From Nostoc edaphicum CCNP1411 (GTDB lineage Bacteria > Cyanobacteriota > Cyanobacteriia > Cyanobacteriales > Nostocaceae): a DNA stretch of 64,000 nt. Shown here one piece after another: positions 9,815-51,973 of this stretch (position 1 is the first letter of the stretch; every line of letters starts with the position of its first letter). Location: assembly GCF_014023275.1 (NCBI RefSeq), contig NZ_CP054694.1, positions 1-64,000 on the forward strand. Direction: 5' to 3'. The position numbers and the translations under genes are program-made. Under the pieces are notes generated by a model that had not been told where the DNA came from, ran no database searches, and was given only the letters and a program-made list of their open reading frames with translations.

Positions 9815-9818
9815 GCAA

Positions 9819-14130: not shown

Positions 14131-14180
14131 AATTTGCTTAATATTGAGTCTTAGCTAATTTAGATTTATCCATCAAATAA

Positions 14181-18053: not shown

Positions 18054-19468
18054 GCACCCATCCCCGTGAGGGGTAATGATTTTAAAACGCGGAAGACTTA
18101 CTGCTTTTTCGCCACGTCCTGATGCCGGTTTCCATCCCCGTGAGGGGTAATGATTTTAAAACGGTTCACGTCACCTTGACAAGCAGCAAAGGATTCTCGT
18201 TTCCATCCCCGTGAGGGGTAATGATTTTAAAACCTGTCATCTGTGCGGCAATTGGATACATTTATTCAGGTTTCCATCCCCGTGAGGGGTAATGATTTTA
18301 AAACTTGTTTTCTATTTAGAAAAAAATAGGAATGAGTGGGAAAGGTTTCCATCCCCGTGAGGGGTAATGATTTTAAAACCAAATCTTCCACTCATACCCC
18401 GCAACGGGTATGAACCGTTGTTTCCATCCCCGTGAGGGGTAATGATTTTAAAACAAGGCGCTACCAAGATTCTAGAGTGGATGAAAAAAGTTTCCATCCC
18501 CGTGAGGGGTAATGATTTTAAAACACTCAACAGCAAACCTTGCTGCACACAATGATCGTGTTTCCATCCCCGTGAGGGGTAATGATTTTAAAACCACTCA
18601 CGCTCTTTGTGATTGGAACTCGAATGCGAGTTTCCATCCCCGTGAGGGGTAATGATTTTAAAACTGCTACTTTTGCATAGTTACAGTAGAACTGAATTAA
18701 TGTTTCCATCCCCGTGAGGGGTAATGATTTTAAAACCAAAAACTTTGCTAATAGCCTTTGCTTATGGAAGCATTGTGTTTCCATCCCCGTGAGGGGTAAT
18801 GATTTTAAAACATGAGTTGATGGGACTTATGTTCCAGCGTCATGGGGAAGTAGTTTCCATCCCCGTGAGGGGTAATGATTTTAAAACCATTCTTGGAGAT
18901 TTGGGATGAGCTAGAATTAACAGTAGGTTTCCATCCCCGTGAGGGGTAATGATTTTAAAACTGCTGTGTCTTATCTACTTTTCCAAGAGTACAAAAGACA
19001 AGTTTCCATCCCCGTGAGGGGTAATGATTTTAAAACCGTATCAATCCGTCCCTGACAGCTATTATAAATTTGTAGTTTCCATCCCCGTGAGGGGTAATGA
19101 TTTTAAAACCTGCTCCATATCTATGCTCTCCACAAGAGAGCAAATAGTTTCCATCCCCGTGAGGGGTAATGATTTTAAAACAGTTATGAAGTTTCGGTAG
19201 AAGTTGGCGCAGTAAAGTTTCCATCCCCGTGAGGGGTAATGATTTTAAAACTTGCTCCTGGCAACATCCAAGGAGGGAACGTTAACGGTTTCCATCCCCG
19301 TGAGGGGTAATGATTTTAAAACTATTGCCCCGGCGTAAAAATCCGCTAGCGGAATTACCGTTTCCATCCCCGTGAGGGGTAATGATTTTAAAACAGTTCC
19401 AACTGGGTGCAAATGGACAGCGTAAGCCACAAGGTTTCCATCCCCGTGAGGGGTAATGATTTTAAAAC
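18054..19468 (-). CRISPR. CRISPR array 1: 20 repeats, 19 spacers
   Basis: Repeats of 35 bases start (plus strand) with GTTTCCATCCCCGTGAGGGG and end in TAATGATTTTAAAAC. I located them at 18054, 18128, 18199, 18270, 18345, 18420, 18490, 18560, 18630, 18702, 18777, 18853, 18927, 19002, 19075, 19147, 19217, 19288, 19360 and 19434. Spacers are 35-41 bases. Read on the minus strand the repeat ends in ATGGAAAC, the usual 8-base 5' handle form, so transcription runs leftwards from the leader at 19469-19763. The distal repeat at 18054 is degenerate at its outer end (GCAC in place of GTTT). Confidence 0.97.
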
Positions 19469-19763: not shown

Positions 19764-19781
19764 CTACTCCTCACTCTTCAA
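19753..19781 (-). promoter_or_regulatory. Putative promoter of array 1
   Basis: On the minus strand TTGAAG (19781-19776) and TATACT (19758-19753) are separated by 17 bases, a good sigma70-type promoter. The -35 element lies inside the 3' end of cas6. Matching TATACT or GATACT boxes sit at the same place relative to the CAGAACCTTGAAA block in the other two leaders, which supports the call. Confidence 0.65.
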
Positions 19782-20879
19782 AGCGCGTCGTGCCAACTTG
19801 ACATAAGTCTTCACCGTTTCATAAGGCATCTCTAAATCTTCTGCCACCACCTGCAATGACTCGCCCATTTCCCGCCGTGCTAAGATTGTCGCCCATTTTG
19901 AGGCTATTTCATCTGCCCTTTCTCCCCCCGTCCGCTTGCGTCGTGCTTTAAAAATCTGTGTTAAATCTTCAATGCGTTTCGCCAAGACAGTTTGCACATC
20001 AGGTATGTCTTGGACAACTTGAGATGACCAACCCAAACGTGTTTGTCCCAACCCAAACGTAGTTTTGTGACCAGTACCGCAGTAGGGTGCAAGTTTTCCT
20101 AAAGCAGAAAATAACTGCCCAAATTCTGGCTGTTTGGCTGCATTTTTAGCTAAACTCAACTCAATCGCCCCAGTGAATCCTGTGACTGCGCCTTTTTTAC
20201 CCGCCAATACCTTCGCGGTTGTTAGTTGGCAACGAGTAATCAATATATAATCATCTACCCAAGCCAGAAAATCATCCTGGTCAACAGACATCCCCGAAAA
20301 GTCATTCCAGCGCCGCAGGTAGCTATGAAAGACATTCGCTGGTACTGGTAAGGGGAAGTGATGGCCTTTACGGCGAAAACTTGTAGGACTGAGAAATTTC
20401 AGAGCGAAAGTCTCATTAAGCTCAGATTCTAGCAGTTGCTTATAAGTTGTGGGAGGATGGGCAATTTTGACAGAACGAATCTGCAAAGGGGCATTTTTTA
20501 ATTCCAGCACCTCTGGCAAATTTTCTACCCATTGCGCCATCCACTGTTGCACTCTATTAGATAAAGCTGTGACATACCAACGATAAGAGGTGTTTGCAGA
20601 TAGTTGTATTTGTCTACCGCTACTGATAATCTCTCCATTTAAAGCTGAGATAGTAAACGGTTTCTCTGACTCTCCATCATGGAGGTAAGCTGAAAGTTCT
20701 GGGTCTGTGGAACCCACTTGTTGGAGAAACCAGGCGTGTAGTCCAATAGTGTACTGAGGGAAGAGGTAACAATCTTTTGCAGGGACTAACTCAAATTCTA
20801 AGCCGATTAACTCTGTGTCCGGCGGCCATGTAAGCGGAGATGGAGGGATATTTGGCTTTTTTTGAGAGCGTCGAAGCAT
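19764..20879 (-). CDS. cas6: Cas6-type pre-crRNA endoribonuclease
   Basis: The 371-residue protein has the double-ferredoxin pattern of Cas6: LIGLEFELVPAKDCYLFP at the start, FALKFLSPTSFRRKGHHFPL in the middle, and the glycine-rich loop KLAPYCGTGHKTTFGLGQTR near residue 275. A C-terminal extension (about 310-371) adds basic residues and a helix-turn-helix-like segment (RREMGESLQVVAEDLEMPYE), unusual for a minimal Cas6. It should cut at the base of the CCCC/GGGG hairpin of the repeats. It is the only intact Cas6 here although two repeat types are present. A repeat-like hairpin precedes its start codon. Confidence 0.85.
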   Translation of the reverse strand: MLRRSQKKPNIPPSPLTWPPDTELIGLEFELVPAKDCYLFPQYTIGLHAWFLQQVGSTDPELSAYLHDGESEKPFTISALNGEIISSGRQIQLSANTSYRWYVTALSNRVQQWMAQWVENLPEVLELKNAPLQIRSVKIAHPPTTYKQLLESELNETFALKFLSPTSFRRKGHHFPLPVPANVFHSYLRRWNDFSGMSVDQDDFLAWVDDYILITRCQLTTAKVLAGKKGAVTGFTGAIELSLAKNAAKQPEFGQLFSALGKLAPYCGTGHKTTFGLGQTRLGWSSQVVQDIPDVQTVLAKRIEDLTQIFKARRKRTGGERADEIASKWATILARREMGESLQVVAEDLEMPYETVKTYVKLARRALKSEE

Positions 20880-22433: not shown

Positions 22434-22715
22434 CTAAACTATAAACGCAGCGTCATCTACTACAAACTCAGGTTGTGTTCCCAATACTGCGACCTTGCAA
22501 CGATTGTGTGCAGTCATGGGGTAGAATCTAACTTGGTCTTCGCGTTTGTTAACGAGTCGGAAGAGGTATTTGGATAGGTTTTCATACTGCTTTTCATCCA
22601 ACACGCACTCGAAAACCGACTTTTGCACCCGCAAACCGTAAGCTTCTAGAAGTTTCGCCACTTTATTGCGACGGGTATCGCTAACAATGTCGTAGCAAAC
22701 TAAATAAAACATCAT
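22434..22715 (-). CDS. cas2: Cas2
   Basis: The 93-residue product begins MMFYLVCYDIVSDTRRNKVA and continues RVQKSVFECVLDEKQYENL, the ferredoxin-like Cas2 pattern with the conserved Asp at 9. I use the ATG at 22715, which overlaps the cas1 stop (ATGATGA-type junction); a longer frame to 22928 would run inside cas1. Cas2 forms the integrase scaffold with Cas1. It is the only cas2 in the window, so it may have to serve both Cas1 proteins. Confidence 0.92.
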   Translation of the reverse strand: MMFYLVCYDIVSDTRRNKVAKLLEAYGLRVQKSVFECVLDEKQYENLSKYLFRLVNKREDQVRFYPMTAHNRCKVAVLGTQPEFVVDDAAFIV

Positions 22716-23752
22716 CGTTTCACCAACTTTAGGGGAACAGTTTGCGGTTGAATGGTGTTGGTGAAGTCTGAATGTAGAGGGCGAAACTTTAACGCTAGAG
22801 GACGGTAAAATTCTACATCCCCCATTAAAGATGCGCGATATTCTCGTACCTGTAAGTCGAGACATTGACGATAACTTACTTCTCCGGCGTAAGGATGCAG
22901 TACAAAAGTTCGCAGTTTTGCTTCCCAATGTTGCAGAAACTTTTGTAGAGGATTGTGTAAGTGGCTTCTACCATTACCATTGCCATTACTATTAGCCAGA
23001 TTGCGAACAAAATTTAACACCAAGTCATCGACAATAGGTGCGCGAAATTCGGCGGTAAAGTCCCATGCTAAGGGCAGTTCGTGACGATCGTCGCGGTGTA
23101 AAATTGGGTAATTAGGGTCAAGTCCTGCGGTGTTCAGAAGTGTGTAAATATATTGATGCAGTAGTTGATTTCCCAGGTTTAGGAGTCCGCTAGTGCGCTT
23201 TGCTGTTGTATAACTAGAACCATTGTAAAAGCTGAGTAGGGAACCAACGGCACAGTAATAAATGTTATCAGCTTCCTTGCTGTATTCGTCCAATTCATCA
23301 ATTCCTGGTGCTAGCGGTAAGTTGTCCATCAACAGCGTCAGATAATTTAATGCGCGTTGGATTGTGTGATTAGCGTGGTAGCGAGTCCAACTTTGGAGAA
23401 AAGTATGTTGGTTGTGCAATTTTGCCCAGATAATACTTTCTGCTGTAGCGCGATTAAATTCGGTATCCCGTGCGCGTCTACGTTGGTAGGTGAGATATTT
23501 TGCTTGTAGTTTGGATGGGTTTTCTACTCGTCCTAAATATTCACCAGTTTGGGTTAGATATAAGACAGGAATCTGCTGTGAATGAACGATTTGAATGACT
23601 TCTTTTGGTAAACTGATATTACCAAAGATGATGAACTGACTGAGATTACGAATTGGAATACAGATACGTTGATTTTGTTGATGAAACACCTTTAAATAAT
23701 GGTGTTGAATTTGGAATGTTACGTCCTGTTCGGTGATGTAAATTGTAGACAT
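22712..23752 (-). CDS. cas1: Cas1 integrase (stand-alone)
   Basis: The 346-residue protein has the Cas1 N-terminal beta region (MSTIYITEQDVTFQIQHHYL; LSQFIIFGNISLPKEVI) and the metal-binding residues in expected contexts: Glu in SKEADNIYYCAVG, His in YPILHRDDRHELPL, and Asp/Glu in AWDFTAEFRAPIVDDLV. It acts with Cas2 to insert spacers at the leader end of arrays. It is coupled to cas2 by a 4-base overlap. Its upstream region carries the phased motif also found near the second Cas1 module. Confidence 0.93.
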   Translation of the reverse strand: MSTIYITEQDVTFQIQHHYLKVFHQQNQRICIPIRNLSQFIIFGNISLPKEVIQIVHSQQIPVLYLTQTGEYLGRVENPSKLQAKYLTYQRRRARDTEFNRATAESIIWAKLHNQHTFLQSWTRYHANHTIQRALNYLTLLMDNLPLAPGIDELDEYSKEADNIYYCAVGSLLSFYNGSSYTTAKRTSGLLNLGNQLLHQYIYTLLNTAGLDPNYPILHRDDRHELPLAWDFTAEFRAPIVDDLVLNFVRNLANSNGNGNGRSHLHNPLQKFLQHWEAKLRTFVLHPYAGEVSYRQCLDLQVREYRASLMGDVEFYRPLALKFRPLHSDFTNTIQPQTVPLKLVKR

Positions 23753-24829: not shown

Positions 24830-25174
24830 TATTACCTGACCTCGTTTGCTTCTAGCTTAGATTATAACCATCTTGCCCTGCTTTCTATAATTCCATCCTC
24901 TCAAACGAAAAGGCGAATGAACGACACCAACAACAATGCTGTATGTTTCCATCCCCGTGAGGGGTAAAGGAATTAAAACGGCATTGTATTGCTGCGTTTG
25001 GGAATCTTAGTGGCTTCAAGTTTCCATCCCCGTGAGGGGTAAAGGAATTAAAACAAGTTCTTGAAATAGTGAACAAGTCGATTTGGACACGAGATGTTTC
25101 CATCCCCGTGAGGGGTAAAGGAATTAAAACTCTTGAAGCGACACCACCCTTGGTGCGTAATATGGTTAAGGTTT

Positions 25175-27564
25175 AATGGGTAGGGCAGGGATATTGCTAC
25201 CCCTTTCCCCCCGACAAACCGGACAAGCAAGTTAACCAAGCATCCGGCTTTAGCAAATCCTAGAGCTACCAAAGACTCAGTTCATCATCGAGTTCAGAAT
25301 TGAGTTTCTGTACAATATAATGTATTTGTTGATGACAGTAATAATGCACTAGTTCCAAATTAGCGTAAGTATCGTTACCACCTTGATGACAAGGAATTAT
25401 ATGATGCTTTTGTATGGGTTCATCATTGAGTAATGACTCCCCGCATACAGGACACTTAAATCCTTGTTTTTGGGCAAGCTTCTGGTAACTAGGAATTAAA
25501 CTTTTAGATTTAATATTCTGACGGTTTTCCCAATAAGATTTTAGCTCTGGGTCATCGGTAGAATAAGCACCCTTTACCATTGGATGTCTCCTAATATTGA
25601 ACCAGCTAAACTTGAGCAGATGTTTTCCCGTGCGCTTGTTACCAAACACCCAGTAATCACTTCTATCAAGATTTAATCTTCCCCAATAACGATGATTACG
25701 CCAAGATTGGTTCTTCTTGGCGTGCATTCGTTTGGCATACCTTCTCTCCCTAACAAACATCCATCTATCTAAAGAACTGAATATTTGTGAGGAAACTACA
25801 GTCCGATAATAGTTAGCTATTCCCCGAATAATTGGGTTTAGCTTGCTTATGACAAAATCAACACTACAACTTTTATTATCAAGCCATACTTGTTTGATTT
25901 TATCCCGGATGTTTTGCAAAGATTCAATGCTAGGTTTGATTAATACTTTCCTACCTGTTTTGGTAGTGGAATCCGGGTATTGTCTGATGTGAAAGCCTAA
26001 GAAGTTGAATCCATCCAACAGCCGTACTATGTGGGTTTTTGACTCATTAAGAGTTAAACCGCGAGTAAACATAAACTCTTGGAGAGTATCCCGCGCTTTG
26101 ACAGCATCTTCCCGACTTTTGCAGAACACCACCAAATCATCGGCATAGCGCACAATACCGCGATCGCCAATCGTATGACCGTTTTTATCGTACTTGATGC
26201 CGAGGACAGATTCCATACCATGCAAAGCTATATTCGCAAGTAGCGGTGAAATAATTCCACCTTGAGGTACTCCAGCATTGGTATTATGGAAAACACCTTT
26301 ATCCATATATCCCGCATTCAGCCATTGTTGGATTAATTTTCTGGCTGGAAAATTACCAATGGCATTAATTAGCGGTACATGAGAGATGTTATCAAAGCAA
26401 CCTTCAATGTCCGCATCTACCACCCACTTTTTAGTGGAGTTGGCTTTTGACATTGAATGTATCCTTTCAATCGCATCATGGCATGACCTTCCCGGTCTAA
26501 AGCCATAGGAAGTGCGCTCAAAGTGCGCTTCCCAATAGGGTTCCAAGGCATTTTTGATGATGGATTGGAGACATCTATCGACAATACAAGGTATTCCCAG
26601 AGGTCTTTGTTTTCCATTGGATTTACGGATATATACCCGCTTTACTGGTAATGGCTTCCACGGGATAAATTTGGTTAGAATATCTACCAACAATCCTCTC
26701 GCTTGTGGTGTTTTTACCAGCAGTTTATCCACCCCTGCTGTTTTACTGCCTCGGTTTAATTGCGTTACTCTTCTAACGGAAAGTAGTATATTAGAATAGC
26801 TACGCATTAGTAGCTTTTGTAGGTTGCGAACCTTTTTACGGCTACCGTCCTTGGTTGCCTTGAATATTCTCTGTCTGAGTCGCCTAACTACTCTGAATGC
26901 GTTTTTTCCAGTTGACGCTGTTCCAGTCGGTAGTTCTCTGTGTTACGTTCACCACTTTTTTAGAGCGCACCTAACTTTTCCATCAGAGTTCGGTTCCTTT
27001 CTATTGAACTCAAGGGATTCACCCGCCACACGTTAGCACTCTTTCAAGTTGGTTATTTAACCTATCTGCCCAGTTATGATTTCCTGTTGCCTTTCGACAT
27101 AGCAGCATTCGCTTCTTGTGGCATCTTACACCCACCGGGGGATTAAAGCTGGATTACTCCAATCTCTACTTAAAACATCGACCTAGTTCAAAGACCCCGT
27201 TGGGGTTCCTACGTATCACACGCGAGAGATACAACTAGCTTGGGTTCCCTCTATACACCGGGGGTTCAAGGTGTCTACTGATTCTGAGGATTGGGCAGAA
27301 TCACTTTTACCCCTTTTACCGTCTCAGCCGTTTTCGGTAATTCCTCTTCACGATGCCTCTACGAGGATTCACATCTGTTAACCCTGTCTAGTTTTACCCT
27401 AGCGCTTCACCTCACTGTGCGGCTTGCTGATGTCGCGCATTTTACCCTCTAGCTTTGAAACATCGCAGTTACCCGCAATGCTCCTTCGGGCGGGTACTGG
27501 CTTTTGACACTTGCCACGAGTTTTTCTGAGGAACTCACTCTCTACGTGCAACCGATAGTCGCAC
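25175..27564 (-). mobile_element. Group II intron copy 1 (2390 bp) in array 2
   Basis: On the minus strand the element begins GTGCGACTATCGGTTGCACG, as group II introns do, and ends TACCCATT after a domain V-like hairpin (AGCCGGATGCTTGG / TTGTCCGGTTT). It interrupts a CRISPR repeat exactly between GGGGATGG and AAAC. It lies in the same direction as array transcription, so splicing from the pre-crRNA would rebuild the repeat. It encodes a reverse transcriptase-maturase with HNH domain. It is almost identical to copy 3. Confidence 0.93.
25266..26970 (-). pseudogene. Intron-encoded RT-maturase-HNH, copy 1 (N-terminal frameshift)
   Basis: From about 26807 the frame is intact and shows all RT blocks, including the YADD active site (IVRYADDLVVFC), the maturase X region (PIIRGIANYYRTVVSS) and a C-terminal HNH domain (CPVCGESLL; HHIIPCHQGGNDTYANLEL). 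In the related copies translation starts at a GTG (here 26970). In copy 1 a T-run of six at 26902-26907, where the others have five, shifts the N-terminal part out of frame. A shorter product from 26807 would lack the first RT block. Either it is slightly broken or the run was misread. Confidence 0.8.
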
Positions 27565-28687
27565 CCATCCCCGTGAGGGGTAAAGGAATTAAAACCCATG
27601 CGAGCCGTTATGGTTCCGATGATTCGGGACAGGTTTCCATCCCCGTGAGGGGTAAAGGAATTAAAACTGTGACAAGTTAAATTATATTTCTGCAAGGATG
27701 CATTAGTTTCCATCCCCGTGAGGGGTAAAGGAATTAAAACTCTAGAGCGGATTAGACTTGCAGCGGAAGATGTTCAGTTTCCATCCCCGTGAGGGGTAAA
27801 GGAATTAAAACTGAGGGAAAAAGCAGAAAAATCAAGAAGGAAAGTCTCCCAAGTTTCCATCCCCGTGAGGGGTAAAGGAATTAAAACCGAAGCTTTCATT
27901 TATGGAGGCTTTCCAAAATGAATTGTTTCCATCCCCGTGAGGGGTAAAGGAATTAAAACACGTCTTTTTGCGAATGCTGGGGCGGATGCAGTTTGTTTCC
28001 ATCCCCGTGAGGGGTAAAGGAATTAAAACTATAAACTAACTCTCAGCAACGGCCATATTTTGCAGTTTCCATCCCCGTGAGGGGTAAAGGAATTAAAACT
28101 ACTCTTTATGCCAGGGATGTTGCCTGGACAGTAAAGACGTTTCCATCCCCGTGAGGGGTAAAGGAATTAAAACCATTCTTAGGATTAATAAAAGACCACT
28201 TGTAAGATTCGTTTCCATCCCCGTGAGGGGTAAAGGAATTAAAACATATAGGTGCTGCACTTCTCACCCTGATAAAAGAAGGTTTCCATCCCCGTGAGGG
28301 GTAAAGGAATTAAAACTAGTAAGGTTTGCTGCTTTTTTACCTGATGGTAAAAGGTTTCCATCCCCGTGAGGGGTAAAGGAATTAAAACCTGAAAGTTAGC
28401 ACCTGCACTCCCCCATCGGGAGCGCCACGTTTCCATCCCCGTGAGGGGTAAAGGAATTAAAACTGTTGGCAAAGCTGCCAGCAGATCAACAAACAATTGA
28501 GTTTCCATCCCCGTGAGGGGTAAAGGAATTAAAACTACCCCACAAAAATCCACCCCCAACGAGAATTCCACCTACCAGTTTCCATCCCCGTGAGGGGTAA
28601 AGGAATTAAAACATTGGGGGTATTTTCAATTCAAAGTTAGATGCAGAGAAATGTTTCCATCCCCGTGAGGGGTAAAGGAATTAAAAC

Positions 28688-28978
28688 CCTGCCCATTTAG
28701 AAGCCTTATGCAGACAGGGTTACAGATACCCATTTTCGCGGGGGGTCTAATTTAACTGTCAATAAGCTACATTTATTGAGAATTTAGTCCTAGTAGACCC
28801 TTCTCAAAAGCTTACTCAGAAAGCTTTTCGCGGGGGTCAACGAAAGAATAAGGCTTTTGGCGATCGCCTGACCCCCGCGAAAAATTTACGTACACAAAGT
28901 AAAAACAAGTACTTTGAGATTCACTTGGAAACGTTAGATTAAGTTTTCAAGGTTCTGTCTGTTGTTTCAGATAGTATC
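28688..28978 (-). promoter_or_regulatory. Leader and putative promoter of array 2
   Basis: It contains the same blocks as leader 1: CATTTTCGCGGGGGGTCTAA, CTGTCAATAAGC, TTTTCGCGGGGGTCAACG, TGACCCCCGCGAAAAATTT and TTTTCAAGGTTCTGTC. A GATACT box (28978-28973, minus) stands where leaders 1 and 3 have TATACT. The GC boxes face each other as an inverted repeat (GCGGGGGTCA / TGACCCCCGC). The leader lies between the first repeat and RT-cas1. Confidence 0.8.
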
Positions 28979-29073
28979 ACAAAGTACTCTGACTTTTCAC
29001 AGCATAAAACACGAACTTAACATAAGTTTTCTCTACTACCGCCCCAGTTATGCAAGGTTATTTGTGGAACAGC

Positions 29074-31095
29074 TTATTTCTCCCAAATCATTGGTCGGTA
29101 AACTTCCACTTCACCCTTCAAGCATGAGATATATTCTCGTACCTGCAACTCAAGAGCGCGACGGTATGCTACTTTTTGTCCAGTATGAGGGTGCGTCATT
29201 TCTGATTGCAATTTCTCTTCCCAATGTTTCAGAAACTTCTTGAGTGCGTGAGCTTGAAAATACACACCTTCTCGTTCGTCGGGTAACGTAAAATCATCAA
29301 TTGTAAAAACTTCTGAATTGACTAAATAAACTGCTAAAGAATCGACCAAACCAGCCCTCCATTCTTCCATCAAATCAGAAACTAGTGCTGGATGATTGTC
29401 ACGGGGAACGTGTAAATTCCCAAAATGAGTATGCAATCCTACAGATTGGATGAACGAATAAACATTTTGGCTTAATAGAGTGTACCCCAAACTGAGCATA
29501 CTATTAATGGGGTCAGTGGGTGGACGCTTGGTGCGCTTTTCAAACGTAAACGAACCAGAAAATAAACTTCCCAGTGCTTGAAAATAAATTGTCGCCGCCC
29601 TTCCTTCATATCCCCGCAGCATATCCAGATTATCTGCAAAAGGTAGTTTGCTCATCAAAATTTCTAATTCATTAGATGCCTTTTTGATGATTGTTTCATC
29701 TACATTTTTAGATTTTTGACGACGGTTTAACCGCATCAATAATATACGTGAATTATGCAACTTTGCCCGAACTATCGCTTCAGCTTGCTTTCTGGTAAAC
29801 TCTGGATTTTGACAACGCTCAACCTGTAACATCAAATATTCAACTTTAGCATCACCTTCTGTTTGCAACCTGCCAAAATACCTACCCTTTTGTGACAAAT
29901 ACATGATCGGAATCCGTCGCCGCAACGCCATACTCACCGCACCATGTGATACATTACAACAACCAAACAGCACAACATTGCTGACTCGACTGACTGGAAC
30001 TTTAATCCGCAATTCACCTTGATAATAAACTTGAAATTGTTGATTTTTTACGCTCAAATAAGCACCTTGGTCGGTTATATATAAAGTAGTCATGGTTTCC
30101 TGCCAATAATGAGAAATTGATGCTCTGGGAAAATTAATTGGTTTGTCAATACTGCAAGCTTTAGGAGGACGAGAAACTGGTTTCGCTGGTCTTGGTTTCC
30201 TGCGAAAATAAGGTGTACCCGAATCATTAATTACCCATTCTCCAGCGAGTACAGGTTTGGGTGGTGGTGGTGCATAAACTTCACCGCCAGCAAAGCGATA
30301 ACCTAAAAAAGTAAACTCATCATTGGGCGTAAAAATCTGTGTCTTCTCTGGTTGTAGAGTTAAATAAACTTCTCCTAACCAAGCAGTAATTTTGTCAAGG
30401 ATACGGTTTGCTTCTTGCCAACTTTTACAAGCGATGACAAAATCATCCCCGTATCGCACCAAATTAATACCTTGACTGAGACATTTTCTATCAAAACTAG
30501 TCAGGTATAAATTTGCTAAAGCACCAGAAAGTCCCCCACCTTGTAATACTCCTTTACCAAAGTTACGATATTGTCCAGCGACGATAATTCCTGACTTCAA
30601 CTGCTGTTCTAGTAACTGTAATACTATTGGTTCAAGTGATAATTCCTCCAATGCAGTTAACAATAATGCCCAAGAAAGATTGTCAAAAAAATCGGCGATA
30701 TCAGCTTTGATAATCCATTTTGGTTGATACTGATAGTATCCATATAAATGTTGTACTGCTTGGTGAATACTGTGTCCAGGACGATAGGCATAGCTGCAAT
30801 CAAGAAACGTATCTTCTAAGGGAAAATACAATTCATCGAGTAGTAAACGCTGGATAATTCTATCCCGCACGGTAGGGACACCAATTAAGCGCTTACTGCC
30901 GTTTTTCTTGGGTATGTAAAACCCTTTAGCGGGGCTTGGAGTGTAAGTTTCGTGGTGTAGTTGATATTCGAGCTTCTGTAATTGTTCGGTAGCCATTGAC
31001 TCGAATAAGTCAACAGAAATACCATCAATCCCCGCAGTCTTACTTCCCGCACGAACTTGTAGCCATGCGAAATTGAGGTGTTCTTTGGTGAACAT
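29074..31095 (-). CDS. Reverse transcriptase-Cas1 fusion
   Basis: Residues 1-320 are a group II intron-like reverse transcriptase: RAGSKTAGIDGISV, YIPKKNGSKRLIGVPTVRDR, QGGGLSGALANLYL and the active site LVRYGDDFVIAC. Residues from about 335 (MTTLYITDQGAYLSV) are a full Cas1 with YEGRAATIYFQALGS, LHVPRDNHPALVSDLMEEWR and an intact C-terminus. There is no Cas6 domain at the N-terminus. Such fusions can capture spacers from RNA. No cas2 is next to it. I use the ATG at 31095; the frame can be read two codons further to a TTG. Confidence 0.93.
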   Translation of the reverse strand: MFTKEHLNFAWLQVRAGSKTAGIDGISVDLFESMATEQLQKLEYQLHHETYTPSPAKGFYIPKKNGSKRLIGVPTVRDRIIQRLLLDELYFPLEDTFLDCSYAYRPGHSIHQAVQHLYGYYQYQPKWIIKADIADFFDNLSWALLLTALEELSLEPIVLQLLEQQLKSGIIVAGQYRNFGKGVLQGGGLSGALANLYLTSFDRKCLSQGINLVRYGDDFVIACKSWQEANRILDKITAWLGEVYLTLQPEKTQIFTPNDEFTFLGYRFAGGEVYAPPPPKPVLAGEWVINDSGTPYFRRKPRPAKPVSRPPKACSIDKPINFPRASISHYWQETMTTLYITDQGAYLSVKNQQFQVYYQGELRIKVPVSRVSNVVLFGCCNVSHGAVSMALRRRIPIMYLSQKGRYFGRLQTEGDAKVEYLMLQVERCQNPEFTRKQAEAIVRAKLHNSRILLMRLNRRQKSKNVDETIIKKASNELEILMSKLPFADNLDMLRGYEGRAATIYFQALGSLFSGSFTFEKRTKRPPTDPINSMLSLGYTLLSQNVYSFIQSVGLHTHFGNLHVPRDNHPALVSDLMEEWRAGLVDSLAVYLVNSEVFTIDDFTLPDEREGVYFQAHALKKFLKHWEEKLQSEMTHPHTGQKVAYRRALELQVREYISCLKGEVEVYRPMIWEK

Positions 31096-31278
31096 AATCA
31101 AAAGTAAAAAGTAAAAAGGTAAAAGGTAAAAGAAAGATTATGGACACGCTTTCAACCTACTTGGGATGATAAATCCCAAGGGCGAGTAGCGAAACTCCGT
31201 TAAAACGGACTAAAAATGTAATATGTGTTTTAGTGTCGAATCCCTTGCAGTACCTTTGATTTAATTGTTGCAGTGCCA

Positions 31279-31335
31279 TATATGAGTTCATGTATGGGTT
31301 ATTGACTCTTGTATATGAGTTCGTATATGACTTAT
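31279..31335. promoter_or_regulatory. Phased TATATGA-TT repeats between RT-cas1 and the XRE gene
   Basis: ATATGAGTTCATGTATGGG, then TATATGAGTTCGTATATGAC, repeat a GTATATGRSTT word at about 11-base spacing. The site lies in the 268-base divergent region and matches the one upstream of the stand-alone cas1 (23831-23896). It is probably an operator; the adjacent XRE protein is the obvious candidate to bind it. Confidence 0.55.
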
Positions 31336-31363
31336 GTAAAATTCTTTTACCTTTTGACTTATT

Positions 31364-32113
31364 ATGAGCAGGACTCTGGTTGCATCAGATCAAGGTGTGA
31401 AGCTGGCAAGAAAAGCCTTAAAAGCCAGAAATTTAACTCAAACAGATTTTGCTATGGAGGTAGGATTAGGTTACACAACTGTTAATAATTTCCTCAACAG
31501 TAAACCGATATATCGCACAAACTTCCAAGAGATTTGCGTTTTCTTGGGCTTAGACTGGCAAGATATTGCTGCATTTGGTGAAGAAGCCGAAACCCAAGAA
31601 CTCACACCCCTTGATAAGCTTTGGCAACAACTTCAATTATTAAGCTCTCCTACTGAACAAATGGGGCTAGTCTTAGTAAAAGAAGAAACACTAGGTTGGG
31701 GTCAGAAAATACCGAGTCGTTACGAAAAATCAGTGCAGGTAGGTAGTTTTATTCGTTTTGAAGTCAACTTAGAGACTCCTGGATATTTACTACTATTGCA
31801 AAAAGATACATCGGGACAACTATGGTGTTTTTGTCCTTCGTGTTTTGCTCCCCAGCCGCAGTTGAATACAGGTAAGACAACTCTGCCTCAAGAAGGTTCG
31901 CCAATAACATCTTTCCCAATAGAAGGCGAACCAGGTAAGGAGGAAATTATCGCAGTCCTTACCAAGGAAGTACCTGCATTAGACTGGTTACGGCAAGAGA
32001 ATGATGAGGTTTTGAAACTAGAAGCAAGTCATCTTATAGAGTTACTAAAATATGTGACTGAACGCGGAGACTATCAACTTTGGTATACAGATTACATGGT
32101 TATTGCACGATAA
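31364..32113 (+). CDS. XRE-type helix-turn-helix protein with DUF4384-like C-terminus
   Basis: The N-terminal 70 residues form a Cro/C1-type helix-turn-helix (KALKARNLTQTDFAMEVGLG, YTTVNNFLNSKPIYR). From about residue 120 the sequence (VGSFIRFEVNLETPGYLLLL then LWCFCPSCFAPQPQL) fits a DUF4384-like domain. It is divergent from RT-cas1 and followed by the leader of array 3. It is plausibly a regulator of the adaptation genes; the phased motifs are its candidate sites. That link is inference. Confidence 0.7.
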   Translation: MSRTLVASDQGVKLARKALKARNLTQTDFAMEVGLGYTTVNNFLNSKPIYRTNFQEICVFLGLDWQDIAAFGEEAETQELTPLDKLWQQLQLLSSPTEQMGLVLVKEETLGWGQKIPSRYEKSVQVGSFIRFEVNLETPGYLLLLQKDTSGQLWCFCPSCFAPQPQLNTGKTTLPQEGSPITSFPIEGEPGKEEIIAVLTKEVPALDWLRQENDEVLKLEASHLIELLKYVTERGDYQLWYTDYMVIAR

Positions 32114-32259
32114 AAAAGTTAATAGTTTAGGCGTTCAAAACTTCAAGTAGTTTGTTATACTACTGCTCAATAGCCACAGAACCTTGAAAAGTTAATAGTT
32201 TAGGCGTTCAAAACTTCAAGTAGTTTGTTATACTACTGCTCAATAGCCACAGAACCTTG
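32114..32259 (+). repeat. 73-bp tandem duplication carrying the array 3 promoter
   Basis: Two perfect 73-base copies (32114-32186, 32187-32259) each contain GTTCAA, a 17-base spacer, TATACT (32156-32161; 32229-32234) and the conserved CCACAGAACCTTGAAAA end block. Leaders 1 and 2 have only one copy. The promoter of array 3 is therefore doubled. Confidence 0.85.
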
Positions 32260-32519
32260 AAAACTTAATATCAGGTTTCAAAATAAAAGCGAAAGTGCTT
32301 AGTTTTACTTTTCATACGTAAGTTTTTAGCGGGGGTAAGCCAATCCCTGAAACCCTTATTCTTTCGTTTACCCCCGCGAAAAGCTTGCTGGGTATGAGTT
32401 TGAGATACCTAAGTCTGTGTCTAATTGTCAATAAACTATACTTATTGACAGGTAAATTAGACCCCCCGCGAAAATGGGTATCTGTAACCCTCTCTGGACA
32501 AGGCTTCTAAAAGGGTAGG
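32114..32519 (+). promoter_or_regulatory. Leader of array 3
   Basis: This is the mirror-oriented counterpart of leaders 1 and 2, with AGCGGGGGTAAGCC, TTTACCCCCGCGAAAAGC, TGTCAATAAACTATACTTAT and TTAGACCCCCCGCGAAAATG. The TGTCAATAA / TTATTGACA inverted repeat is perfect here. It directly precedes the first repeat at 32520 and follows the XRE gene. Confidence 0.85.
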
Positions 32520-32912
32520 GTTTTAATTCCTTTACCCCTCACGGGGATGGAAACATTCAATCAAAGTGAAGCCACCTTGTTGATTTTTTTTGGCGTTTTA
32601 ATTCCTTTACCCCTCACGGGGATGGAAACTCGCAGCATCAAGAATTTGCTTAAATTCTTGAGACATGTTTTAATTCCTTTACCCCTCACGGGGATGGAAA
32701 CCCTATCGAGGAGGCATTGCAATGTCCTCTTCTTGTTTTGGTTTTAATTCCTTTACCCCTCACGGGGATGGAAACTTGCGCCATTCAGTTGTATCCACAA
32801 TCACATAATGGTTTTAATTCCTTTACCCCTCACGGGGATGGAAACTCTTACATTCTTCTCCTGCGCTATGGGCGTTAGAAAGTTTTAATTCCTTTACCCC
32901 TCACGGGGATGG

Positions 32913-35302
32913 GTGCGACTATCGGTTGCACGTAGAGAGTGAGTTCTGATGAAAAACTCGTGGCAAGTGTCAAAAGCCAGTACCCGCCCGAAGGGGCATT
33001 GCGGGTAACTGCGATGTTTCAGAGCTAGAGGGTAAAATGCGCGACATCAGCAAGCCGCACAGTTAGGTGAAGCGCTAGGGTAAAACTAGACAGGGTTAAC
33101 AGATGTGAATCCTCGTTGAGGCATCGTGAAGAGGAGTTACCGAAAACGGCTGAGACGGTAAAAGGGGTAAAGTGATTCTGCCCAATCCTCAGAATCAGTA
33201 GACACCTTGAACCCCCGGTGTATAGAGGGAACCCAAGCTAGTTGCATCTCTCGCGTGTGATACGAAGTAACCCCAATGGGGTCTTTGAACTAGGTCGATG
33301 TCAAAAGTAGAGATTGGAGTAATCCAGCTTTAATCCCCCAGTGGGTGTAAGATGCCACAAGAAGCGAATGCTGCTATGTCGAAAGGCAACAGGAAATCAT
33401 AACTGGGCAGATAGGTCAAATGACCAACTTGAAAGAGTGCTGACGTGTGGCGAGTGAATCCCTTGAAGTCTAATGCAATGGAAACCGAACTTCTTCGGGA
33501 AAAGTTAGGTGCAATTAAAAATTGTGAACGTAACCGGAAGAACTACTGACTGGAATAGCGTCAACTGGAGAAACGCGTTCCGAGTAGTTAGGCGACTAAG
33601 ACAGAGAATTTTCAAGGCAACCATTGGCGGTAACTTGAAAAAGGTTGGCAGCCTTCAAAAGCTACTTATGCGTAGCTACTCTAATATAGTACTTTCCGTT
33701 AGAAGAGTTACGCAACTAAACCAAGGCAGTAAAACAGCAGGGGGTAGATAGATTACTGGTAAAAAACCCCGGCAGCTAGAGGGTGGTTGGTGGATATCCT
33801 CACCAAATTTATTCCTTGGAAGCCGTTACCAGTTAAGCGGGTGTATATCCGTAAATCTAATGGAAAACAAAGACCACTCGGAATACCTTGTATTGTCGAT
33901 AGATGTCTCCAAGCCATCGTCAAAAATGCTTTGGAACCCTATTGGGAAGTGCACTTTGAGCGCACTTCCTACGGCTTTAGACCGGGAAGGTCATGCCATG
34001 ATGCGATTGAAAGGATACATTCAATGTCAAAAGCCAACTCCACTAAAAAGTGGGTGGTAGACGCGGACATCGAAGGTTGCTTTGATAACATCTCTCATGT
34101 ACCGCTAATTAATGCCATTGGTAATTTTCCAGCCAGAAAATTAATTCAACAATGGCTGAATGCGGGATATGTGGATAAAGGTGTTTTCCATAATACCAAT
34201 GCTGGAGTACCTCAAGGTGGAATTATTTCACCTCTACTTGCGAATATAGCTTTGCATGGTATGGAATCTGCCCTCGGTATCAAGTACGATAAAAACGGTC
34301 ATACGATTGGCGACCGTGGTATTGTGCGCTATGCCGATGATTTGGTGGTGTTCTGCAAAAGTCGGGAAGATGCTGTCAAAGCACATGACACCCTCCAAGA
34401 GTTTATGAATACTCGCGGTCTAACTCTATCGGAGTCAAAAACCCACATAGTACGGCTGTTGGATGGATTCAACTTCTTAGGCTTTCATATCAGACAATAC
34501 CCTGATTCCACTACCAAAACAGGTAGGAAAGTATTAATCAAACCAAGCATTGAATCTTTGCAAAATATCCGGGATAAAATCAAACAAGTATGGCTTGATA
34601 ATAAAAGTTGTAGTGTTGATTTTGTCATAGGCAAGCTAAACCCAATTATTCGGGGAATAGCTAACTATTATCGGACTGTAGTTTCCTCACAAATATTCAG
34701 TTCTTTAGATAGATGGATGTTTGTTAGGGAGAGAAGGTATGCCAAAAGAATGCACGCCAAGAAAAATCAATCTTGGTGTAACCGTCGTTATTGGGGAAGG
34801 CTAAATCTTGATAGAAGCGATTACTGGGTGTTTGGTGATAAGCGCACGGGAAAACATCTGCTCAAGTTTAGCTGGTTCAATATTAGGAGGCATCCAATGG
34901 TTAAGGGTGCTTATTCTACCGATGACCCAGAGCTAAAATCTTATTGGGAAAACCGTCAGAATATTAAATCTAAAAGTTTAATTCCTAGTTACCAGAAGCT
35001 TGCCCAAAAACAAGGATTTAAATGTCCTGTATGCGGGGAGTCATTACTCAATGATGAACCCATACAAAAGCACCATATAATTCCTTGTCATCAAGGTGGT
35101 AACGATACTTACGCTAATTTGGAACTAGTGCATTATTACTGTCATCAACAAATACATTATATTGTACAGAAACTCAATTCTGAACTCGATGATGAACTGA
35201 GTCTTTGGTAGCTCTAGGATTTGCTAAAGCCGGATGCTTGGTTAACTTGCTTGTCCGGTTTGTCGGGGGGAAAGGGATAGAAATATCCCTGCCCTACCCA
35301 TT
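32913..35302 (+). mobile_element. Group II intron copy 2 (2390 bp) in array 3
   Basis: It begins GTGCGACTATCGGTTGCACG right after GGGGATGG of a repeat and ends TACCCATT right before AAAC. A domain V-like hairpin lies at about 35228-35262. It is more diverged from copies 1 and 3 than these are from each other, so it is probably the older insertion. It is in sense with the array. Confidence 0.93.
33509..35211 (+). pseudogene. Intron-encoded RT-maturase-HNH, copy 2 (frameshifted)
   Basis: A GTG start at 33509 opens the frame (TDWNSVNWRNAFRVVRRLRQ). Near 33740-33770 two extra bases, one in a G-run (GCAGGGGGTAG) and one in an A-run (GTAAAAAACC), move the frame. From 33787 the RT (VRYADDLVVFC), X and HNH regions are intact to 35211. 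Without the two additions the whole protein would be open. Translation from an internal start would lack RT block 0/1. Confidence 0.8.
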
Positions 35303-35662
35303 AAACAAAACGCGCATTCACATAGCAGCCTGCGTCAAAATAGTTTTAATTCCTTTACCCCTCACGGGGATGGAAACAAGAGTCAAGAGTTAGTAAGAGC
35401 TAGACTTAACCAATTTGTTTTAATTCCTTTACCCCTCACGGGGATGGAAACATTTGACGTTGTTCCGCAACGTTCAACATACTGCTAAGTTTTAATTCCT
35501 TTACCCCTCACGGGGATGGAAACCTAAGAAAAGTACTACTACAAAAAGCGTCTTCCAGTCGTTTTAATTCCTTTACCCCTCACGGGGATGGAAACTCTCC
35601 AGAAAACACTATCATAATTATACTAGTAGCAGTTTTAATTCCTTTACCCCTCACGGGGATGG

Positions 35663-38053
35663 GTGCGACTATCGGTTGCACGTAGAGAGTGAGTTCCTCA
35701 GAAAAACTCGTGGCAAGTGTCAAAAGCCAGTACCCGCCCGAAGGAGCATTGCGGGTAACTGCGATGTTTCAAAGCTAGAGGGTAAAATGCGCGACATCAG
35801 CAAGCCGCACAGTGAGGTGAAGCGCTAGGGTAAAACTAGACAGGGTAACAGATGTGAATCCTCGTAGAGGCATCGTGAAGAGGAATTACCGAAAACGGCT
35901 GAGACGGTAAAAGGGGTAAAAGTGATTCTGCCCAATCCTCAGAATCAGTAGACACCTTGAACCCCCGGTGTATAGAGGGAACCCAAGCTAGTTGTATCTC
36001 TCGCGTGTGATACGTAGGAACCCCAACGGGGTCTTTGAACTAGGTCGATGTTTTAAGTAGAGATTGGAGTAATCCAGCTTTAATCCCCCGGTGGGTGTAA
36101 GATGCCACAAGAAGCGAATGCTGCTATGTCGAAAGGCAACAGGAAATCATAACTGGGCAGATAGGTTAAATAACCAACTTGAAAGAGTGCTAACGTGTGG
36201 CGGGTGAATCCCTTGAGTTCAATAGAAAGGAACCGAACTCTGATGGAAAAGTTAGGTGCGCTCTAAAAAAGTGGTGAACGTAACACAGAGAACTACCGAC
36301 TGGAACAGCGTCAACTGGAAAAACGCATTCAGAGTAGTTAGGCGACTCAGACAGAGAATATTCAAGGCAACCAAGGACGGTAGCCGTAAAAAGGTTCGCA
36401 ACCTACAAAAGCTACTAATGCGTAGCTATTCTAATATACTACTTTCCGTTAGAAGAGTAACGCAATTAAACCGAGGCAGTAAAACAGCAGGGGTGGATAA
36501 ACTGCTGGTAAAAACACCACAAGCGAGAGGATTGTTGGTAGATATTCTAACCAAATTTATCCCGTGGAAGCCATTACCAGTAAAGCGGGTATATATCCGT
36601 AAATCCAATGGAAAACAAAGACCTCTGGGAATACCTTGTATTGTCGATAGATGTCTCCAATCCATCATCAAAAATGCCTTGGAACCCTATTGGGAAGCGC
36701 ACTTTGAGCGCACTTCCTATGGCTTTAGACCGGGAAGGTCATGCCATGATGCGATTGAAAGGATACATTCAATGTCAAAAAGCCAACTCCACTAAAAAGT
36801 GGGTGGTAGATGCGGACATTGAAGGTTGCTTTGATAACATCTCTCATGTACCGCTAATTAATGCCATTGGTAATTTTCCAGCCAGAAAATTAATCCAACA
36901 ATGGCTGAATGCGGGATATATGGATAAAGGTGTTTTCCATAATACCAATGCTGGAGTACCTCAAGGTGGAATTATTTCACCGCTACTTGCGAATATAGCT
37001 TTGCATGGTATGGAATCTGTCCTCGGCATCAAGTACGATAAAAAACGGTCATACGATTGGCGATCGCGGTATTGTGCGCTATGCCGATGATTTGGTGGTG
37101 TTCTGCAAAAGTCGGGAAGATGCTGTCAAAGCGCGGGATACTCTCCAAGAGTTTATGTTTACTCGCGGTTTAACTCTTAATGAGTCAAAAACCCACATAG
37201 TACGGCTGTTGGATGGATTCAACTTCTTAGGCTTTCACATCAGACAATACCCGGATTCCACTACCAAAACAGGTAGGAAAGTATTAATCAAACCTAGCAT
37301 TGAATCTTTGCAAAACATCCGGGATAAAATCAAACAAGTATGGCTTGATAATAAAAGTTGTAGTGTTGATTTTGTCATAAGCAAGCTAAACCCAATTATT
37401 CGGGGAATAGCTAACTATTATCGGACTGTAGTTTCCTCACAAATATTCAGTTCTTTAGATAGATGGATGTTTGTTAGGGAGAGAAGGTATGCCAAACGAA
37501 TGCACGCCAAGAAGAACCAATCTTGGCGTAATCATCGTTATTGGGGAAGATTAAATCTTGATAGAAGTGATTACTGGGTGTTTGGTAACAAGCGCACGGG
37601 AAAACATCTGCTCAAGTTTAGCTGGTTCAATATTAGGAGACATCCAATGGTAAAGGGTGCTTATTCTACCGATGACCCAGAGCTAAAATCTTATTGGGAA
37701 AACCGTCAGAATATTAAATCTAAAAGTTTAATTCCTAGTTACCAGAAGCTTGCCCAAAAAACAAGGATTTAAGTGTCCTGTATGCGGGGAGTCATTACTC
37801 AATGATGAACCCATACAAAAGCATCATATAATTCCTTGTCATCAAGGTGGTAACGATACTTACGCTAATTTGGAACTAGTGCATTATTACTGTCATCAAC
37901 AAATACATTATATTGTACAGAAACTCAATTCTGAACTCGATGATGAACTGAGTCTTTGGTAGCTCTAGGATTTGCTAAAGCCGGATGCTTGGTTAACTTG
38001 CTTGTCCGGTTTGTCGGGGGGAAAGGGGTAGCAATATCCCTGCCCTACCCATT
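35663..38053 (+). mobile_element. Group II intron copy 3 (2391 bp) in array 3
   Basis: It has the same 5' end (GTGCGACTATCGG), the same 3' end (CTACCCATT) and the same insertion point within the repeat as copies 1 and 2. It is nearly identical to copy 1, including amino-acid choices that differ from copy 2, which points to a recent copying event between arrays 2 and 3. Confidence 0.93.
36256..37962 (+). pseudogene. Intron-encoded RT-maturase-HNH, copy 3 (three frameshifts)
   Basis: It starts at a GTG (36256) and aligns throughout with copy 1. Three single-base additions occur in A-runs: 36777-36781 (five versus four), 37040-37045 (six versus five) and 37756-37761 (six versus five). The RT core, YADD and HNH residues are otherwise conserved. 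It would give no full-length protein as written. Mobility in trans by another copy is possible. Confidence 0.8.
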
Positions 38054-38368
38054 AAACTTTCTCTGAAATTTTACGAGGGTGGTCTATTTCCAACTCTTGA
38101 GTTTTAATTCCTTTACCCCTCACGGGGATGGAAACGAGTCTCTTAATCCCTGCTTCGCACAAGTTTCACGAGTTTTAATTCCTTTACCCCTCACGGGGAT
38201 GGAAACCCTTTATTTATCATCAACCTTCGTGAGGTGATATGGTGTTTTAATTCCTTTACCCCTCACGGGGATGGAAACTGATGATGAACAATTTTAGGTA
38301 AAATAAGTAATTGATTGATTGATTGAAAAGTCAAAACTAAAAAATATACCAGCATCTGGAACTAGCAG

Positions 38369-41300
38369 ATGAAAAAACTCATAAAAAAATTAAATCAACT
38401 TAATTTACAGGTTGTGCAACTTGCTGGACAAGGAAACTTAAAGCAAGCAATAATTATTGCCCAACAAGCTGTAAACTTAGGATCAAGTCAGCAGCTAACA
38501 GAGCATTCAGAATATTGTGATAGCTTGAATAACTTAGCAGAATTATATCGAATACAAGGATGTTATTTAGAAGCCAATCCCTTGTATTTACAAGCGTTAA
38601 CTATTAGAAAAAGTCTCTTAGGTTCAGAACATCCTGATGTTGCACAATCTTTAAATAATCTGGCAGCACTATATCATTCACAAGGGAATTACTCACAAGC
38701 CGAAAAATATTTTTTAGAATCCCTGGAACTTTGGAAAAGTATTTTTGGAGCTGAACATTTTCAAATTGCGACTAATTTAAATAATCTGGCAGAGATTTAT
38801 CGAGAACAAGGAAAATATCTCAAAGCTGAACAAGTACATTTAGAAGTTTTAGCAATGCGAAAACGTCTGTTTGGCGATGAACATCCAGATATTGCTCAAA
38901 CTTTGACTAATCTAGCATCAATTTACACATCCCTTGGACGTTATTTAGATGCAGAAAAAATGCACTTAGAAACCTTGGCGATGAAAAAACGTTTGTTTGA
39001 AGAGTTACATCCTGATATTACTATTAGCCTGAATAATTTGGCCAGATTGTACGATCTTCAAGGACGTTATCAAGAAGCGGAACAAATACATTTAGATGTT
39101 TTAGACAGATGGAAAGAAATATTAGGTTCAGAACATCCATATATCGCATCTACCTTCAGTAATCTGGGGGGAACTTATCAAGAACAGGGGCGTTACCTAG
39201 AATCCGAGCAAAAATATCTAGAAGCCTTGGCGATGAGAAAAAGCTTGCTAGGTGCTGAACATCCTGATATTGCTAGTGGTTTGGATAATTTAGCAGAACT
39301 TTATCTGATTCAAGGGCGTTATTTATCAGCTGAACAGAAGGCTCTGGAAGCTTATTCTTTGAGAAAAAAACTGTTCAGTTCTGAGGAGTTTGATATTGTT
39401 GATAGCTTAAAAATCCTGGCAGTAATTTACACCTACCAAGGGCGATATTTGGAAGCTGAAAAACTATATTTAGAAGTATTCCCAATACTAGAAAGCTCAT
39501 TAGGGAAAGAGCATCCCATAATTGCCGGTGCTTTAAACAATCTAGCAGGACTTTATGAAGAACAAGGAAATTATTCTCAAGCCGAACAAAAATATTTATC
39601 AGCTCTAGAAATTCAAAAAAATCTCTTAGGTAATGAGCATCCTGATATTGCCTTGACTTTCAACCAGATAGCAGTTATTTATCGGTTACAAGGACGGTAT
39701 TCTGAATCTGAACAACTGCATCTAGAATCTTTGGCGATGACCAAAAATATTTTAGGAGAACGACATCCATTCGTAGCAGCGATTCTCAATAATTTAGCAG
39801 CATTATATCATGCTCAATTCAAATATCAAGAAGCAGAATCATTACTTTTATCAGCCTTAGCTATCGTTAAAAGCGCCTTTGGTGACGAACACCCACAAGT
39901 AGCAAGTACGATGAATAACTTAGCGGTTATTTATGATTTTCAAGGGCGTTATCAACAAGCAGAAGAACTCCATTTAGAAACATTGAGACTGAGAAAGTCA
40001 TTACTAGGAGAAGAACACCCACAAATCGCTAATAGTCTGAATAATCTGGGAGAGTTATACTTTTCGCTGGGGCGCTATGAAGAAGCACAACAGAAGTATG
40101 TAGAAACTTTGGCGATGAGAAAACGCCTGTTGGGAGATGAACATCCTGATGTTGCATTTAGCTTAAATAATCTCGCAACGGTGTTAGCTACGACTAACCG
40201 CCCAGATGAAGCTTTATCTCATCGCATCGAAGCGAGTAATATTAATGATAAGATTATTCGTAATATATTTGCTTTTAGTTCCGAAAGCGATCGCCTGGCC
40301 TTTCTGCAAAAAATCAGAAATAACTTTGACTTATTTCTTTCCTTAGTCTGCAACCATCTTGCTGACTCAGATAAAGCAAAACTTGCAGCCCTAGATTTTA
40401 TCCTTAAACGTAAAGCCTTAACTGCCTCAGCGCTGGCGGCTCAAAATGAAGCATTTTACAATGGCCGCTACCCGCAGTTGACAGAAAAATTCCGCCAACT
40501 GCGCGATTTGAGCAATCAAATTATCCATCTGACTTTTGCAGTTCCCAAAACAGATGACTTAGCTACATACCAAGATAATTTGAGACAACTGCAAAACAGA
40601 CATAACAACTTACAAAAACAATTAGCGGCACAAGTTCCAGAAATTCAGCTATCACAACAAACTTTCGACCGTGAGGCGATCGCCGCAGCATTACCGCCTA
40701 ACTCTATTTTGGTCGAGTTTGTCCGCTTTGACTTATTCGATTTTCAGGCAATTTCGGCCAATGGAGAAACACAATGGCATCCAGCTCGGTATTTAGCATT
40801 TATTTTAACAGCCGGACAATCAAATGCCGTGCAGATGGTAGATTTAGGGGCAAGCACATCCATCGATGAACTGATTCAAGCCTTTCGCTTACAAGCATCT
40901 GACTACACCCATCCGACATTAGCTTGGGGTAAAGGTAGTGACGCACCAAAGCTACACATCAAATCATACAATCCTACAGATGCGATGCAACTGAGTCAAG
41001 CAGTGTTCGACCCCATCCGGGACTTAGTGAAAGATTGCAGCCATCTAATTATTGCACCCGATGGTAATTTAAACTTAGTGCCATTTCAGATATTGCCGAT
41101 TGATGCCACAGGCTCACGTCTATTAATGGATGATTACACCATCAGTTATCTGGGTGTCGGGCGAGAAATTCTCCGTAGCCAAGTTCAGCCAACCACAGGT
41201 TCTATCTCTGCACCATTAATCATTGCCGATCCTGATTTTGATTTAACAGCAGATGCAGTCTCAGGGGACTGGGGATTGGGGACTGGGGACTGGCGATCGG

Positions 41301-51734: not shown

Positions 51735-51967
51735 ATTATGTGCAACCTGAGTTACCCTTAAATCAATGGGGACAAATGATCTGTGAAACTAATCAAACAC
51801 AGGCGGTTAAACTATATCGAAAAGCATTGCTTTCATCAAAATGGTTAACCGTTTACTGATACAACAAGGAATTGACCCAAATTTACTATGAATTACCCCT
51901 GGCTCAAACTTTCGCACAGCCAGAGGTAGTTCATTATCTGAGTTTTATACCTGCACAAGTCAGATAA
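51731..51967 (+). pseudogene. Small gene after the relaxase, nonsense codon at 43
   Basis: A GTG overlapping the relaxase stop opens a frame encoding MNYVQPELPLNQWGQMICET and so on. A TGA at 51857-51859 stops it after 42 residues, but the same frame continues coherently (YNKELTQIYYELPLAQTFAQ) to a stop at 51965. A single base change (for example CGA to TGA) would explain it. The function is unknown. Confidence 0.5.
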
Positions 51968-51973
51968 AACCTA

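Follow-up and report, generated by a model that had tools for sequence, protein, structure and literature searches.

A group II intron lineage of the Nostocaceae that very probably has the CRISPR repeat as its home

What are three group II introns doing inside the repeats of two CRISPR (clustered regularly interspaced short palindromic repeats) arrays? The question is raised by a 64-kb stretch of DNA, here called the window, which is part of the 99-kb contig C2 of the Nostoc edaphicum genome (G000). The three introns split identical 35-nucleotide (nt) repeats at one point, GGGGATGG / AAAC, which lies four bases past the repeat hairpin and ahead of the last four bases of the repeat (AAAC); GGGGATGG occurs 54 times in the window, compared with 1.13 times expected from shuffles. 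In each of the three, GTGCGACTATC stands immediately after GGGGATGG and CTACCCATT immediately before AAAC, and each is oriented in sense to the array that it interrupts (minus strand for intron 1 in array B, plus strand for introns 2 and 3 in array C). When the flanks are joined, the upstream 31 nt and AAAC form an exact 35-nt repeat in all three cases. The first-pass annotation, which had placed three introns at one identical site in CRISPR repeats, in sense to the array, was correct to the base, and the restoration of a perfect repeat by intron removal, which it also proposed, holds at the level of sequence for every copy. The match to RF00029, the Rfam model of domains V–VI, ends on the last T of intron 1 (37.3 bits, E 3.9e-5; the score is below the gathering score of 40 and the match is absent from the gathering-threshold scan), so that repeat and ribozyme agree on the boundary. 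Comparison of the sequences described below indicates that these introns very probably belong to a mobile group II lineage of filamentous cyanobacteria for which the CRISPR repeat is home.

The intron open reading frame (ORF) codes for a group II reverse transcriptase (RT)-maturase with an HNH domain (TIGR04416, 355.8 bits against a cut-off of 300; HNH match, E 5.5e-10), whose nearest solved protein is 6me0_C (E 7.2e-102), which we take to be the protein of a thermophilic cyanobacterial IIB intron. Eleven proteins from CRISPR-sited introns, four of them from G000, form one clade with support of 100/100 in a tree of 53 protein rows. In the window assembly, neither intron 2 nor intron 3 has an unbroken frame, and the frame of intron 1 is without a start; open frames of 566–618 codons (stop to stop) are found in seven other genomes, and the ratio of nonsynonymous to synonymous substitution (dN/dS) is 0.09–0.18 in 7 of 7 comparisons of clade pairs, which indicates that the clade proteins are under purifying selection. 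The 5' start, GUGCG, fits the group II GUGYG, the three sequences that were folded each show an unpaired A at seven bases from the end, and domains V–VI are kept in the clade and its relatives, with two-sided changes at 9 of 25 pairs (19 sequences). Minimum-energy folds of the 5' 600 nt were discordant between copies and were not used. The introns are probably self-splicing.

Copies in other genomes were counted by a search of 211 Nostocaceae genomes with the exact intron 5'-end pattern, which is free of any flank. This gave 34 matches in 20 genomes, of which three are without intron similarity and the remaining 31 are introns, in 17 genomes. All 31 are preceded by a CRISPR-type hairpin and handle, in 26 distinct upstream sequences; the handle is ATGG at 19 sites, ATTG at five, ACGG and ACTG at three each, and GCTG at one, which holds a remnant whose intron similarity extends over 46 nt and which comes one unit behind a degenerate repeat. 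The flanks of two Dendronalium matches and of the match on C6, the 7.7-Mb chromosomal contig of G000, were read from separately fetched loci. At 26 sites the same repeat with AAAC is present again one unit upstream; among the other five, one has downstream repeats, two come directly after a leader and first repeat that an intact array also has, one is preceded by a degenerate repeat, and one (L116) is assigned from its sequence only. Where 3' ends were read, AAAC follows in 28 of 29 and AAAA in one; by eye, four of the 29 (L011, L043, L135, and L142) have no repeat in 95 nt, and in some others the last repeat is degenerate. The intron is in the sense orientation at every site read, and the copies of Dendronalium phyllosphericum CENA369 are in at least four repeat families. 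One of the two findings that would have told against the first-pass annotation, related introns mostly outside CRISPR repeats, is thus not borne out, and its view of the array as a multi-site home for the intron is strengthened by the recurrence of the arrangement in other genomes.

DNA searches matched 34 of 59 genomes at 1e-3 and 48 of 217 family members at 1e-20, and retrieved full copies, terminal fragments, and deleted forms. An order-wide DNA search matched 32 of 388 genomes, and outside the Nostocaceae only G419, from another family of the order, was judged to hold a clade member, a decayed copy in a CRISPR repeat. A phylum-wide junction pattern was found in 4 of 386 genomes, all Nostocaceae, but this pattern includes part of the CRISPR handle, is blind to non-CRISPR sites, and was not used for counts. 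Six stretches with the pattern in viral contigs included no relative. The close search was confined to Cyanobacteria, and CRISPR repeats may serve further intron lineages as targets.

The pairing of an exon-binding site (EBS) with the repeat, which the first-pass annotation had suggested as a check, is present. In the clade, the EBS1 loop of one conserved hairpin is CAAUCCU, CUAUCCU, or CUGUCCU, and it pairs with an intron-binding site, IBS1, made up of the 3' arm of the repeat hairpin and the first half of the expected 5' tag of the CRISPR RNA (crRNA). Loop and own site pair at 6 or 7 of 7 bases in all 18 clade introns that hold the loop, and at 6 of 7 in the decayed copy of G419; heptamers of the window that pair at 6 or more bases make up 0.4–1.1%. 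The intron of G228 has a CUGUCCU loop and a GGACGG site. When the partners are swapped, three clade loops pair with five relatives' sites at only 0–3 of 7 bases. The sequence upstream of IBS1 varies between the sites of identical introns (G027a/b and G210a/b), and therefore a fixed IBS2 cannot be used; the hairpin is perhaps recognized in addition to IBS1. The CAAU of the CAAUCCU loop complements AUUG, which according to PMC3575380 opens the last 8 nt in 9 of 12 published repeat classes; the same paper gives the 5' tag ACUGAAAC for two Synechocystis arrays and a 13-nt tag for a third.

The nearest introns outside the clade (Nostoc HK-01, Nostoc 106C, Nostoc T09, and Tolypothrix) resemble it in having the same architecture, with 65–68% protein identity, but differ in occupying non-CRISPR sites and in their ends, CTACCCGAC. 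The aligned loops of the relatives contain stretches complementary to their own 5' exons, and those of the HK-01, 106C, and T09 introns pair with their own sites. No CRISPR-like periodic repeats were present in the fetched loci of 13 relatives for which one end or both could be read (L048, L056, L057, L058, L059, L060, L061, L063, L066, L086, L151, L153, and L154), and no handle-GTGYG junction was found in the loci of 52 relatives' rows (before near-duplicate removal). A scan of these 52 loci for periodic 20-mers gave one match, L183, which was not taken for a CRISPR array, the 20-mers being two copies of a longer tandem unit. Most simply, CRISPR targeting arose once, from ordinary homing introns.

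It should be recognized that several points weigh against a lineage dedicated to the CRISPR repeat. The exact 5'-end pattern misses altered 5' ends, several of the copies in other genomes are remnants, and an end was read for only 11 of the 42 non-CRISPR rows of the tree. Nine clade introns, all with CAAUCCU at ATGG or ACTG sites, have one mismatch to their site; the clade loop was located by an expression fixed as C...CCT after inspection of the alignment; the heptamers of the relatives were chosen by eye, with omission of a Sphaerospermopsis relative that gave no match; and the swap contrast is weaker in the opposite direction, since the relatives' loops pair with two CRISPR sites at 1–5 of 7 bases. 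With regard to the protein, dS is above 1 in three of the seven dN/dS comparisons, and all four copies in the N. edaphicum genome carry single-base indels in one-base runs, with the full 566-codon frame in none; these indels are likely, although not proven, to be assembly errors, since there are no substitutions among the copies. Finally, 28 of the 94 free (uninterrupted) GGGATGGAAA sites of G000 are outside arrays, so that the location of its four introns in arrays is not significant alone.

The last point also bears on the possibility that the intron is a general parasite which reads a short IBS1-AAA motif, most copies of which are supplied by arrays, with hairpin and splicing being irrelevant. 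The other 66 of the 94 free sites in G000 are array repeats by spacing, and EBS1 pairing alone could explain the site. This explanation is possible but rather unlikely: all 31 introns are in CRISPR-type repeats, an outcome with a chance of about 3e-5 if the array share of target motifs, counted in G000 only (70/98), applied in every genome and the sites are taken as independent, and both the ribozyme ends and domains V–VI have been kept.

Evidence for movement comes from the fourth full copy in G000, found on C6 by DNA search. The idea that it lies inside a coding gene was rejected, the site being a CRISPR repeat: the copy comes after the final repeat of a different array, built of a repeat (CTTTTTCATCAACTTCCCCTCACGGGGATGGAAAC) that has only its 3' half in common with the window repeat, and it is followed by A instead of C after AAA. 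Between intron 2 and the C6 copy there are three indels, each of a single base in a one-base run, and no substitutions, which, in view of their unlike repeats, points to recent movement, by transposition rather than array duplication. Introns 1 and 3, in the same repeat type, differ by five such indels, again with no substitutions. Copies free of substitutions in repeats with different 5' halves are present in three genomes (intron 2 and the C6 copy, G027a/b, and G210a/b), and together with intact frames under purifying selection these indicate recent mobility. We therefore consider mobility to be well supported by the sequence comparisons, and infer splicing.

The leader and first repeat of the C6 array are common to arrays of G016 (97%) and G170 (92%), but G000 has the intron in repeat 6 and the other two have it in the first repeat; the occupation of different repeats indicates separate insertions, and the first repeat of the G000 array provides a natural empty site. 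In G170 there is an 855-nt form that lacks the ORF and matches intron positions 1–635 and 2301–2390, domains V–VI included, and in a second array of this genome 116 nt of intron are left. This remnant, in the second repeat at L136, is accompanied by a stretch much like the leader of array C. At L130 (G210) the repeat families upstream and downstream of the intron are different, a mosaic array that perhaps arose by recombination between intron copies, and fragments from the interior of the intron, lying within or next to CRISPR arrays at L140 (G198) and L144 (G165), are perhaps decay products of old insertions. Repeat counts lean toward leader-distal insertion, but G026 (no upstream repeat found), G016, and G170 have the first repeat occupied, and a bias is not claimed. 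Among 95 spacers from 15 intron contexts, none matches a full-length intron with up to five mismatches in the first 30 bases.

The alternative to repeated retrohoming, that a single interrupted repeat was multiplied by duplication or recombination inside arrays and from one array to another, would account for introns 1 and 3, which share a replicon and a repeat type and have no substitutions, and the mosaic at L130 hints at recombination. However, the substitution-free pairs in repeats with different 5' halves and the 26 distinct upstream sequences in 31 sites stand against it; the copies in unlike repeats already largely refute this explanation, and we regard it as highly improbable.

For a lineage with the CRISPR repeat as its home, the following sequence of events can be proposed. 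A complex of maturase and lariat would recognize mainly IBS1, and perhaps also the hairpin, as it reverse-splices into repeat DNA; transcription of the intron would start from the array promoter, and splicing would restore the repeat. By analogy with published arrays, Cas6 is expected to cut between the hairpin and ATGGAAAC, leaving ATGGAAAC as an 8-nt tag. The intron would then be in the middle of the tag, four bases past the expected cut, which would divide IBS1, so that splicing and Cas6 cutting of one repeat would exclude each other and splicing would have to precede Cas6 for a normal crRNA to be made from the downstream spacer. If Cas6 acted first or splicing failed, only the next spacer would lose its normal tag. 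Each acquired spacer would add one more target repeat, which would make the array a cheap, self-renewing home, and insertion into the first repeat should, on this scheme, block normal spacer addition. We lean toward the view that the family represents a fourth natural target class for group II introns of bacteria, being specialized for the CRISPR repeat and reading, through EBS1, the conserved 5' tag of the crRNA. The same seven bases would then be contested by splicing and Cas6 cutting ("splice before dice"), new homing sites would arise as spacers are acquired, and leader-proximal insertion would freeze the array.

The introns have in common with mobile group II introns of the RT-maturase-HNH type the GUGCG start, domains V–VI with an unpaired A, the RT, maturase, and HNH domains, and EBS1-IBS1 targeting, but differ in targeting the CRISPR repeat and in having no fixed IBS2. 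The class C (IIC) introns that follow terminators, as described in PMC4424553, also insert beside a hairpin that recurs in the genome, and the introns of attC sites, in the same text, likewise occupy sites of another acquisition system. The class C protein has no HNH domain, whereas the present family has one and its IBS1 takes in the 3' arm of the hairpin; the family is thus not placed in class C, its site being four bases after a CRISPR hairpin and not an intrinsic terminator motif. Of the comparison with hairpin-guided insertion made in the first-pass annotation, the position four bases past the hairpin stands, but with an HNH domain present and EBS1 pairing that enters the 3' arm the likeness is one of analogy only. 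RT-Cas1 and other CRISPR-linked RTs (PMC5513706 and PMC4424553) are without a ribozyme and serve spacer acquisition, whereas the family in the window is an intron inside repeats; its protein, with a ribozyme and no Cas1 fusion, is not an RT of this kind. A part for RT-Cas1, also suggested at first, finds no support, since the introns encode their own RT-maturase and, in the 16 kb that hold the chromosomal copy, a Pfam scan of 7 neighbouring ORFs gave no cas domain, no search for RT-Cas1 having been made near copies in other genomes. Domestication of the introns as CRISPR parts that regulate crRNA supply or work with RT-Cas1, to which the RT-Cas1 gene adjoining the arrays and the uniform sense orientation might point, is most improbable in view of their patchy presence (17/211 genomes), the interruption of the same array at different repeats in three species, the decayed copies, the ordinary maturase, the lack of a cas domain in those same 7 ORFs near the C6 copy, and an orientation that target pairing alone explains. 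Among the papers listed by searches of an open-access library, a scope beyond which lie most subscription papers and all bioRxiv preprints, none concerns introns in CRISPR repeats, to judge by title and opening of the abstract.

Features of the window discussed in the text (positions are those of the window)
Feature	Position	Strand	Remarks
Intron 1	25175..27564	-	2390 nt; array B, repeat 16/19 from 5' end
Intron 2	32913..35302	+	2390 nt; array C, repeat 6/14
Intron 3	35663..38053	+	2391 nt; array C, repeat 11/14
Domains V–VI of intron 1	25175..25252	-	Unpaired A seven bases from 3' end
EBS1 of intron 1	27287..27293	-	CAATCCT in hairpin loop
EBS1 of intron 2	33183..33189	+	
EBS1 of intron 3	35933..35939	+	
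Intron 1 protein	25266..26807	-	RVT_N, RVT_1, maturase (GIIM), HNH; 513 amino acids from ATG; original N-terminal start lost in assembly
Intron 2 protein	33787..35211	+	474 amino acids listed; frame broken near N terminus by single-base indels in one-base runs relative to chromosomal copy
CRISPR array A	18058..19468	-	Similar repeat, intron-free
CRISPR array B	24945..28687	-	19 repeats, 1 interrupted
CRISPR array C	32520..38278	+	14 repeats, 2 interrupted
Cas6	19764..20879	-	Expected cutter of repeat hairpin
Stand-alone Cas1	22712..23752	-	
RT-Cas1 fusion	29074..31101	-	Adjoins arrays
Type III CRISPR genes	4187-15134		Csx19, Csx7 and TIGR03986 RAMPs, Csx3 ring nuclease, Cas_APE2256-domain protein
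Csx10-like and Cas10-like proteins	within 4187-15134		Scores under curated cut-offs
Conjugation genes	46831-64000		TrwC relaxase, TraD/TrwB-type coupling protein, weak TrbI- and TrbL-like matches

With these conjugation genes, the intron-bearing replicon is probably either conjugative or mobilizable. Two other features of the window adjoin array C: two identical 73-nt sequences in tandem just upstream (32114-32259), and a gene directly after the array for a 1263-residue TPR-CHAT protein (38369-42160), near type III CRISPR genes.

CRISPR repeats would, on this reading, be a further target of group II introns, one that belongs to an immune memory that multiplies its own target. The arrangement raises the testable question of whether precursor crRNA is spliced ahead of Cas6 cutting. 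It may also explain some broken assemblies of arrays, since copies of the intron lie at the ends of contigs in draft genomes.

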